11,159 nt of DNA, taken from assembly GCA_002900555.1 (NCBI GenBank), contig MUGD01000061.1:1-11159 (forward strand), in the 5' to 3' direction. Positions within the stretch are counted from its first letter, which is position 1. Every line of letters starts with the position of its first letter. Source of the DNA: Thermoplasmata archaeon M9B2D (lineage in GTDB: Archaea; Thermoplasmatota; E2; DHVEG-1). Below, piece by piece: positions 8,751 through 10,126 of this stretch. Position numbers and translations under genes: made by a program. A model generated the notes under the pieces. It had not been told where the DNA came from and did not search any database. It saw only the letters and a list, made by a program, of their open reading frames with translations.

Positions 8751-8846
8751 TTACTTTTTCTTTGGTTTTCCACTAGCTTTCGCTTCTTTCTTTGCGCCTG
8801 CTTTCTTTGCAGGCGGCTTCTTTGTTGTTGGTTTTTTACTACCCAT
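8751..8846 (-). CDS. Basic Lys/Pro/Ala micro-protein, 31 residues
   Basis: The ATG at 8846 is preceded by AGGTG with a 7-nt spacer, a good ribosome binding site, and the frame ends in TAA at 8751. Thirteen of 31 residues are Lys, with one Glu, giving a net charge of about +12. Lys pairs alternate with Pro, Ala, Thr and Gly (KKPTTKKPPAKKAGAKK at 4-20), and the C-terminus is KPKKK. Both AAA and AAG codons are used, which argues for selection on the peptide and not simple repeat expansion. The composition is that of histone H1 or HU tails and of ribosomal-protein extensions, so it is probably disordered and binds nucleic acid or acidic protein. It lies 97 nt downstream of the acidic micro-gene on the same strand. 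I know of no described family. Confidence 0.6.
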   Translation of the reverse strand: MGSKKPTTKKPPAKKAGAKKEAKASGKPKKK

Positions 8847-8895
8847 CAGTTAACACCTAAGTGGTATTGCTTACAATCTGATTTTTAGTCAGGTG

Positions 8896-8903
8896 ATTAA
8901 AAC
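8896..8903 (-). promoter_or_regulatory. Candidate TATA box for the basic micro-gene
   Basis: GTTTTAAT on the minus strand lies about 50 nt upstream of the ATG at 8846. It would allow a leader of about 25 nt that includes AGGTG. If it is active, the basic micro-gene can be expressed apart from the acidic one. The match is weak. Confidence 0.25.
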
Positions 8904-8915
8904 AGACAGATGGTA

Positions 8916-8934
8916 GATTCATGAGAACTGAATC
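8916..8934 (-). terminator. Short hairpin between the two micro-genes
   Basis: GATTCA and TGAATC form a 6-bp stem with a 7-nt loop, starting 9 nt past the stop of the acidic micro-gene. A short T-run (GTTTTAAT) follows within about 20 nt on the minus strand. It could end or attenuate the acidic transcript before the basic gene. The stem is AT-rich and weak. Confidence 0.25.
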
Positions 8935-8943
8935 AGACTAGTA

Positions 8944-9027
8944 CTAGAAATCGTCGTCGTCCCAGTCATCATCATCTTCCCAATCTTCGTCATCATCGTC
9001 CCAGGTATCTTCATCATCGAAGACCAT
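8944..9027 (-). CDS. Acidic Asp/Trp-rich micro-protein, 27 residues
   Basis: The ATG at 9027 follows GAGAGGTGA with four A in between, the best ribosome binding site in the window, and the frame ends in TAG at 8944. Of 27 residues 16 are Asp and 3 are Glu, with no Lys or Arg, for a net charge of about -19. Three Trp at 9, 16 and 22 each begin a W-(D/E)-D-D-D unit, and Phe sits near the start (3) and at the end (27). GAT and GAC are mixed and Trp codons recur, so the peptide, not a triplet expansion, seems to be what is kept. It must be disordered. The tryptophans in an acidic background recall the acidic segments of the eukaryotic proteasome and BRCA2 partner Dss1/Sem1, but that protein's C-terminal helix is missing. 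The basic micro-gene follows on the same strand. Confidence 0.65.
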   Translation of the reverse strand: MVFDDEDTWDDDDEDWEDDDDWDDDDF

Positions 9028-9063
9028 TTTTTCACCTCTCGGCAAGCGAAGTCAAATCAAATG

Positions 9064-9071
9064 TAAAATAT
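9064..9071 (-). promoter_or_regulatory. Candidate TATA box for the acidic micro-gene
   Basis: ATATTTTA on the minus strand is centred 40 nt upstream of the ATG at 9027. Transcription starting about 26 nt downstream would give a leader of roughly 14 nt that just includes the GAGGTGA ribosome binding site, a geometry that fits archaea. Confidence 0.4.
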
Positions 9072-9225
9072 GTCTAACATCCAATATCAAGTTTATAGGG
9101 TTTAATTCAAAAAATTAAGGTATATATTGATATTAAAGATTAGAAGAAGTTCTATCAACCTCTTTTATGAAGGCTAAGATGATTTAATTGTCACAATAAA
9201 GATTTTAACGGTTATAGCTATCGCA

Positions 9226-9283: not shown

Positions 9284-10126
9284 ATGGATGGTTTAATCAT
9301 CGTGAACGAGGTGAATACGGAGAGTATCAATCTTGCTCAGATTGATTTGAAGGGCACATCTAAATTAGTTATTCTTCTTGGGACTAAAGAAGGTATCAAA
9401 GGGATTTCAAAGAAACTGCGGCAAGATGATGATCTAGTACGCGTAGGAAAAGGCATCTTTATTGCTGGCTCGAGCGGGGGTGCTCACACTGAGCTCTTAC
9501 ACTCACTACCCACATTATCATTCATCCGAACTCGTGAGATTCCCGGCATTAAAGCCCGGCTTGAGGACCCATACGCAGACCGAACCTACTCGATAGTTTC
9601 CTATCGTTTCAATAATCCCACTCCCGGACAAAAAAAGCGTGTCGAACGACTTCTGCGAAGGTCTATGGGTATTCGTATTAGACCTGGTGTTCTTCTGTTC
9701 CCTGTATTAAGAGCTAGAGAACGCAGGAAAGTTCTTGATTATGAAAAAGGGCATTCGTTACTCGACTCCAAGGAATTCAATAACCAGCTGAAATCCATAG
9801 GTGCGCTATCTATGCGGTGGTCGCGACTTCGATTAGCTGAATCCAAAGATTCGGTACACATCAGAGAGGCAATTGAAAGTACTCTAAATAGGGATCTTTT
9901 GTCAATTGAATCTAAACTTCACCGAATTCGTGAGTTAAGTAAGAATCCTTTGGCATCCTCAGATACTCTTAGGAAACAATCTCTTGCAGTATTGCGGCGA
10001 TATCGCAAGCTCAAATTCAAGTGGGTTCTTGCCAAGACTCTCTGGCATTATAATGCTGAAAAGTCCTTGAAACGAATCTACAATCTTGGGCTGAATACGA
10101 AGTACATGATTGATAGTCGAGATTAG
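9284..10126 (+). CDS. Unrecognised 280-residue basic protein with a ferredoxin-like segment
   Basis: The start is ATG at 9284 with no ribosome binding site but a TATA box 27 nt upstream, so it is probably leaderless. No signal peptide or membrane helix is present. Residues 1-80 alternate strands and helices (DGLIIVNEV, then KLVILLGTKEG, then GKGIFIAGSSGGA). Residues 101-140 follow a strand-helix-strand pattern (TYSIVSYRF, then PGQKKRVERLLRR, then IRIRPGVLLFP) like the ferredoxin-like folds of Cas2, PaaX C-termini and the N-terminal domain of the chromate regulator ChrB. Residues 190-270 are helical and very rich in Lys and Arg (VLRRYRKLKFKWVLAKTLW). The order, ferredoxin-like unit then long helical region, is closest to what I recall of ChrB, but no diagnostic motif is clear. 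Nucleic-acid binding is plausible. There are no cas genes nearby. Confidence 0.75.
   Translation: MDGLIIVNEVNTESINLAQIDLKGTSKLVILLGTKEGIKGISKKLRQDDDLVRVGKGIFIAGSSGGAHTELLHSLPTLSFIRTREIPGIKARLEDPYADRTYSIVSYRFNNPTPGQKKRVERLLRRSMGIRIRPGVLLFPVLRARERRKVLDYEKGHSLLDSKEFNNQLKSIGALSMRWSRLRLAESKDSVHIREAIESTLNRDLLSIESKLHRIRELSKNPLASSDTLRKQSLAVLRRYRKLKFKWVLAKTLWHYNAEKSLKRIYNLGLNTKYMIDSRD

Follow-up and report, generated by a model that had tools for sequence, protein, structure and literature searches.

Described systems and the locus

Several described systems resemble parts of the locus reported here, i.e., two micro-genes of opposite charge and a divergent gene for a basic protein of 280 residues, carried by a stretch of 11,159 bases (contig MUGD01000061.1; the whole stretch is called the window). 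DSS1/SEM1 is a small acidic disordered protein in which acidic stretches are spaced by tryptophan. The Cas2 fold includes nucleases, and in Cas2 a conserved aspartate ends the first strand. PaaX has an N-terminal winged helix-turn-helix, a Cas2-like middle and a helical C-terminus. The system closest in mode of working is that of prothymosin-alpha and histone H1. In the cited passages, the polyanionic prothymosin-alpha binds both disordered and folded basic parts of H1, in charge-driven complexes that have no fixed structure (PMC7661507; PMC11971343), and this disordered chaperone extracts H1 from nucleosomes (PMC11971343). Asgard histone tails are described, in the part of the source cited, as short, disordered and lysine-based (PMC10919886).

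The window is considered thorarchaeal because the named nearest relatives of its 280-residue protein are Candidatus Thorarchaeota. Its acidic micro-gene (8944-9027, minus strand, ATG start) encodes 27 residues, MVFDDEDTWDDDDEDWEDDDDWDDDDF, with a net charge of −19, i.e., 19 Asp or Glu, no Lys or Arg, Asp and Asp/Glu runs with Trp spacers, and a terminal Phe. The basic micro-gene (8751-8846, minus strand, ATG start) encodes 31 residues rich in Lys, Pro and Ala, MGSKKPTTKKPPAKKAGAKKEAKASGKPKKK, that begin MGSKKPTTKK; 13 Lys and one Glu are found and the net charge is +12. AGGTG precedes both, the ribosome-binding regions read from the sequence being GAGAGGTGAAAAA (9028-9040, minus strand, with the ATG at 9027 directly downstream) and TTAGGTGTTAACTG (8847-8860, minus strand; also printed as acttaggtgttaa). 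An alternative frame started by TTG (8944-9045) has, unlike the ATG frame, no binding site of its own. The gap between the acidic and the basic gene is 97 bases, and 256 bases separate the acidic start from the 280-residue gene (9284-10126, plus strand), whose product has a charge of +25. The two same-strand micro-genes of −19 and +12, each with an AGGTG site, had been given in a preliminary description of this DNA and are found as it said; the divergent gene had been overlooked.

Linkage in Asgard genomes

A profile of the 280-residue family matched 35 of 227 Asgard genomes, which gave 38 non-redundant loci including the window. An open reading frame (ORF) was counted as acidic when its start codon lay behind GGAG, GAGG, AGGT or GGTG and its product had 18-62 residues, at least 45% Asp and Glu, a net charge of −10 or beyond and an aromatic residue, at a distance of at most 1.2 kb from the matched part of the 280-residue gene. 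A basic ORF had at least 38% Lys and a net charge of +8 or more, the binding site not being required. It must be noted that these rules were fixed after many of the first 38 loci had been inspected. L018-L031, L033, L036 and L041 were omitted as repeats of L001-L017, and L042-L044, L046 and L047 as repeats of L085-L096; L040 (a near copy of L039) was counted, as were L017, L045 and L089 (partial 280-residue gene). L010 and L013 end near the 280-residue gene and were counted as lacking whatever falls outside the contig.

An acidic ORF lies by the 280-residue gene in 36 of the 38 loci, its AGGT, GGTG, GAGG or GGAG site being built into the rule. The misses are L085 and L013, whose contig starts about 300 bases upstream. 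The background, i.e., the other 254 kb of these loci, contains four acidic ORFs (L001, L004, L005 and L007), all of them paralogues of the acidic family. Basic ORFs are present in 18 of the 38 loci (10 by a similar rule that requires a binding site) and absent from the 254 kb of background; 17 of these 18 loci also hold an acidic ORF. In L002, a basic frame in the expected position has diverged and is not counted by the rule. The Lys-rich frame of L085 was counted but is doubtful, another frame being also open there; it is the only case among all 42 loci in which the basic rule is satisfied without an acidic ORF.

These 42 loci include four (L166-L169) that were added by a refined profile, which matched 38 of the 227 genomes, and that were not involved in rule-setting. 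L166 has two acidic ORFs and a Lys-rich ORF of 17 residues, and L168 has one acidic ORF; L169 shows neither micro-ORF by rule, nor does L167, in which the contig begins about 155 bases upstream. The acidic ORF is present in two of the four and the basic ORF in one. The totals are 38/42 for the acidic ORF and, for the basic ORF, 20/42 by the rule alone or 19/42 without L168, whose Lys-rich hit was dropped as an out-of-frame shadow of its acidic gene.

The pairing of acidic and basic genes that had been proposed for the window holds in part. Both occur together in 17 of the first 38 loci and in one of the four later ones; on the contrary, the acidic ORF stands without the basic one in 19 of the 38, L002 (diverged basic frame) and L010 (contig end) being included in this number. 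The preliminary description had taken one gene without the other at unrelated loci as the sign of a false pair. This sign is seen in part, the acidic gene being alone in these 19 loci and having paralogues elsewhere. That the acidic gene is tied mainly to the basic gene is not borne out. In this census its constant partner is the divergent 280-residue gene, and the basic gene is a frequent third member, at about half of the loci.

In the first census, the acidic and 280-residue genes lie on opposite strands in 26 of 36 loci and on the same strand in 10. The former are the thorarchaeal loci, the Loki locus L016, several other genomes and L095; within this type the basic gene is behind the acidic gene in the window, L001, L003, L006, L007, L008, L009, L011 and L038, and in diverged form in L002. 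A distant clade has seven loci (L086-L089, L091-L093) with the genes on one strand in the order 280, basic, acidic, so that the acidic-then-basic order first described is not general. L094 and L166 show the order 280, acidic, acidic, basic. In other words, two arrangements are distributed by clade, basic<-acidic<- ->280 and 280->basic->acidic, and the linkage has outlived rearrangement since both exist. The outer genes vary by lineage (MFS/cupin, AMP-binding enzyme, TFIIB, Na/Ca exchanger, phosphorylase, carbon-nitrogen hydrolase), and general synteny thus does not account for the linkage. These comparisons of gene order show that, in most of the genomes with the family, the acidic and 280-residue genes stayed neighbours through inversion and reordering.

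The basic label was placed on a tree of 37 members of the family, where 19 rows carry it (L002 and L085 being scored as basic). It occurs on either side of the midpoint root and requires nine changes, a number as low being reached in 13 of 500 shuffles. L045 and the last four loci are left out of this tree, and L085 and others form long branches of unsure placement. The distribution fits, and does not prove, a basic gene that is an old member lost repeatedly.

Coding potential and flanking elements of the micro-genes

The window, L001, L002 and L003 were aligned over about 600 bases. In the acidic frame, 47 of 47 differences (six non-independent pairs) are at codon position 3. Every Asp or Glu codon is GAN, and third-position changes can thus be Asp-Glu swaps in which the charge is kept; such swaps affect 0-2 codons per pair, and Trp and Phe are unchanged. 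As all differences between close relatives are at position 3, the acidic frame behaves as a gene, and its codon pattern demonstrates protein-level selection in these close relatives. The basic frame, with differences at positions 1/2/3 of 0/2/6, 1/2/2 and 1/0/5 for the pairs among the window, L001 and L003, looks to be under protein-level selection. Distant pairs are less clear-cut (7/5/12, 5/6/13 and 3/3/7 for the acidic frame; 5/4/7, 3/3/6 and 2/2/3 for the basic frame), position 3 leading in each frame. When the whole window was shuffled 100 times with its dinucleotides preserved, no ORF arose that satisfied the acidic rule of this test (at least 22 residues and at least 60% Asp and Glu) or the basic rule.

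No Pfam match was found for either micro-protein of the window, a test that is weakened by the composition filters of HMMER. The acidic family has a single weak Pfam match (E 0.19), and the acidic profile and one basic peptide have no match among PDB sequences; low-complexity filters weaken both tests. It is proposed that both frames are genes, the acidic one with greater certainty than the basic one, and conservation in relatives bears out the earlier claim that the two are real.

A candidate core promoter element of the acidic gene, CATATTTTACA, is localized at 9062-9072 (minus strand), 35-45 bases before the ATG. It was judged by eye from a four-locus alignment and a listing of 18 upstream regions, in which the word TTTTAC or CTTTAC is seen near this position in most of the thorarchaeal loci listed. 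A sigma-70 promoter scan of the window is not meaningful for an archaeon. Inside 8847-8943 and outside both frames, a block running from CATCTGTCTGT to TNATCACCTGA is conserved in the window, L001 and L003 and, for the most part, in L002; it is a putative promoter or RNA element. Between the divergent genes, the block CGTTAAAATCTTTATTGTG (9192-9210, minus-strand reading) is identical across four close loci and is possibly the promoter of one of these genes.

The 280-residue protein

This protein was characterized by its homologues, family scans, models and fold comparison. The family has no match of weight in Pfam, NCBIfam or PADLOC, the scattered hits having best E values of 0.0037, 0.001 and 0.0045, and its profile gives weak matches only to PDB sequences (best E 0.08), largely to coiled-coil or helical chains. 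Among the database matches a minority carry organism names, all of them Thorarchaeota or Promethearchaeota; the remaining labels read «hypothetical protein», apart from a shorter match labelled as a pseudouridine synthase. The protein belongs to an undescribed Asgard family. Its basic character is general; for the 38 loci (of 42) in which the matched part has 230 residues or more, the charge of this part ranges from +19 to +39.

The AlphaFold2 model has a pLDDT of 85 and a pTM of 0.82 (90.5 and 0.82 for residues 95-280 alone) and displays two ferredoxin-like units followed by a three-helix bundle. In the Foldseek comparison with PDB, PaaX (8a39) comes first, with an E value of 6e-4 for the whole model and of 9.9e-4 (probability 0.99) for residues 95-280. 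Then come Rv0674 (3kfw) and, for residues 95-280, many Cas2 chains, the TM-scores being low. In the VIA-align lists no family is clear of the rest, and the helical part resembles many unrelated bundles. A Cas2/PaaX-like fold is thus predicted. From its charge, this fold and the lack of conservation of the Cas2 aspartate, the protein is probably a mostly non-catalytic, nucleic-acid-binding basic protein.

The basic peptide and histone tails

The Lys-rich micro-ORFs of relatives mostly begin with MAKKK. The first ten residues of the basic peptides of L009 and L011, MAKKKPAAKK, are also found at the N-termini of histone-like proteins from certain other Asgard genomes, and the earlier term «histone-tail-like» is apt in this respect. 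A search for MAKKKP gave matches in 39 of the 227 genomes. Of 30 loci read, ten have the MAKKKPA start on proteins recognised by eye as histone-like (L110-L115, L117, L118, L124, L125); the remaining 20, and four further places, showed no free basic micro-gene. The histone family PF00808 is present in 23 of the 28 genomes scanned, and in G098 and G112, the two scanned genomes among those ten, its match is in the same frame by coordinates.

The genomes of these ten loci have no match to the 280-residue family by either profile. This would fit a detached tail doing the work of the histone tail, with the clades confounded. Six histones readable from genomes with the 280-residue family (26 loci, crude pattern) begin PRSRKDRI or PRSKKDRI and have no Lys-rich tail. 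The link of the basic peptide to histone tails is considered as a lead, the words being of low complexity and the clades confounded.

Paralogues of the acidic gene and other genes of the window

Acidic paralogues are found directly behind genes for a metallo-beta-lactamase-fold protein and a MarR protein in L001 (15154-15228), L004 (17987-18067), L005 (7361-7441), L071, L076, L078 and L079; in L077 the lactamase gene is missing. The lactamase and MarR families were scanned in L001 only, the other loci being judged from similar sequence starts. This gives the acidic family a second conserved location, in Thorarchaeota and their kin. In L066 and L056, acidic paralogues occur at a phosphorylase/hydrolase spot that has no 280-residue gene (families scanned in the similar genes of L035 and L039).

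A further acidic micro-ORF lies at the 3' end of the 280-residue gene, on the opposite strand, in L034 (2283-2387), L016 (10759-10848), L035 (456-575) and L039 (1364-1477). It holds words like WPEEFWDDD or PEEYW, and it is followed by a carbon-nitrogen hydrolase gene in L039 (Pfam) and, by similar sequence, in L034 and L035. This ORF could represent one more small acidic family, or in part an antisense shadow of the 280-residue gene.

Four of ten window proteins scanned, the 280-residue protein among them, have no Pfam match. The other genes of the window correspond to arginine deiminase, a cation P-type ATPase, a TrmB/MEDS regulator, an MFS transporter, a cupin and an acetyltransferase. The minus-strand ORFs 376-759 (127 residues) and 779-970 (63 residues) have no Pfam match. 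No Rfam family was found in the window, and the comparison with plasmid DNA gave short matches only (E 0.009 or worse), none spanning most of the query.

Alternative explanations

The GAY and AAR repeats could be low-complexity DNA that is open by chance and yields no protein. The composition is indeed extreme, and a basic ORF can be simulated when DNA of this kind is read in a different frame, e.g., in L168. Nevertheless, the third-position-only changes, the binding sites, the empty shuffles and a linkage that persists in distant genomes rule this out for practical purposes. An explanation with more weight, unlikely though it is, makes the acidic peptide a general small accessory factor, DSS1-like, of a polymerase, proteasome, ribosome or nuclease, placed near the 280-residue gene by happenstance, with paralogues serving different machines. 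The paralogues at the lactamase-fold/MarR and phosphorylase/hydrolase spots, where the 280-residue gene is missing, speak for it, as does the likeness of the Trp-spaced acidic stretches to DSS1/SEM1. On the contrary, the linkage to the 280-residue gene survived rearrangement, the acidic profile has neither a PDB match nor a Pfam match of weight (low-complexity filters weakening both tests), and none of the 227 Asgard genomes is over the cut-off of DSS1_SEM1 (PF05160). This last family was rejected as a candidate; five weak hits were obtained, and the two loci that were read (L161 and L162) lack both a 280-like gene and, by rule, an acidic micro-ORF.

The two peptides might also be primarily each other's partners, the 280-residue gene being a separate neighbour. 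Such a pair would agree with the near-constant presence of the acidic ORF where the basic one occurs, in both orders, and with the absence of basic ORFs from the background; it is made improbable by the acidic ORF accompanying the 280-residue gene in 36 of 38 loci and by the absence of the basic ORF from 20 of the 38. A relation of the toxin-antitoxin kind, with the Cas2-fold protein as a nuclease and the acidic peptide as an inhibitor mimicking nucleic acid, is suggested by adjoining genes of opposite charge, by the Cas2 chains among the Foldseek results and by an aspartate of L096 at the Cas2-like place. That residue, placed by eye, is found in none of the 42 rows of alignment A2 and in one of the 16 rows of alignment A6, i.e., L096 itself. 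Moreover, the acidic and 280-residue genes lie on opposite strands in 26 of 36 loci, unlike usual toxin-antitoxin operons, acidic genes also occur alone, and the PADLOC matches are weak and scattered (best E 0.0045), with one or two members each. We consider this relation very improbable.

Proposed mechanism and comparison with known systems

The explanation that we tentatively prefer, with a confidence somewhat short of even, is an Asgard cassette in which a disordered polyanion has two basic partners, chiefly the 280-residue protein and often also the Lys-rich peptide. The main interaction is placed between the acidic peptide and the 280-residue protein because their genes are near-constant neighbours. 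The 280-residue protein would bind nucleic acid. The acidic peptide would compete against nucleic acid both for the positively charged surface of this protein and for the Lys-rich peptide, and would thereby act as a soluble chaperone or release factor, with its tryptophans contributing further contacts to lysines. The Lys-rich peptide may serve as a detached tail, compacting or neutralising nucleic acid up to the point at which it is stripped off by the acidic peptide. By analogy with the action of prothymosin-alpha on H1, the likeliest mechanism is that the polyanion buffers or releases both a basic protein that binds nucleic acid and a detached, histone-tail-like polycation. A wider joint claim seems rather unlikely to us, i.e., that the polycation, the Trp-spaced polyanion chaperone and the basic Cas2-fold protein on which both act form an ancestral three-part Asgard polyelectrolyte module, a prokaryotic counterpart of prothymosin/H1 in separate micro-genes, kept through rearrangement.

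No such system was found in the open-licence PMC literature, searched by titles and starts of abstracts, a coverage that makes this absence weak. The three parts of the cassette are covered by none of the tested families, and its mechanism would resemble a known one. Micro-genes under the usual gene-calling size here flag the conserved surroundings of a protein family that has no name, in the archaea closest to eukaryotes. If a disordered charge complex controls a nucleic-acid-binding protein, this would be a prokaryotic cassette form of a eukaryotic chromatin mechanism, and the timing of the origin of polyanion chaperones and Lys-rich tails would become testable with three short synthetic genes.

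The comparison with the known systems can be stated as follows. The acidic peptide shares with DSS1/SEM1 its acidic stretches spaced by tryptophan; it differs from it by its length, the aligned acidic peptides (24-55 residues) being shorter than DSS1. The 280-residue protein is predicted to resemble Cas2 and PaaX in its ferredoxin-like fold. It differs from these fold families by its long three-helix C-terminal bundle, by the Cas2 aspartate, which is not conserved, and by the lack of the N-terminal winged helix of PaaX in the model, where residues 25-82 are strand-helix-strand-strand-helix-strand, and of a Pfam helix-turn-helix match. Cas1 is absent among the ten window proteins scanned with Pfam, the window being short and a search for CRISPR arrays not having been made. 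The likeness to Asgard histone tails is the identity of the first ten residues in L009 and L011, a low-complexity match that may be convergent; the peptide of the window starts otherwise (MGSKKPTTKK), and the tail-like peptide of the cassette is a free gene product that has no histone fold. The system of prothymosin-alpha and H1 is alike in its mode of working alone, a relation of sequence not being shown. It, too, brings together a disordered polyanion, a disordered polycation rich in Lys and a folded domain of basic charge, and the extreme opposite charge and low complexity are found here as well (−19 in 27 residues and +12 in 31 residues). The Asgard peptides differ by being far smaller, encoded in a cassette and Trp-spaced, with a folded partner that is predicted to be Cas2/PaaX-like.
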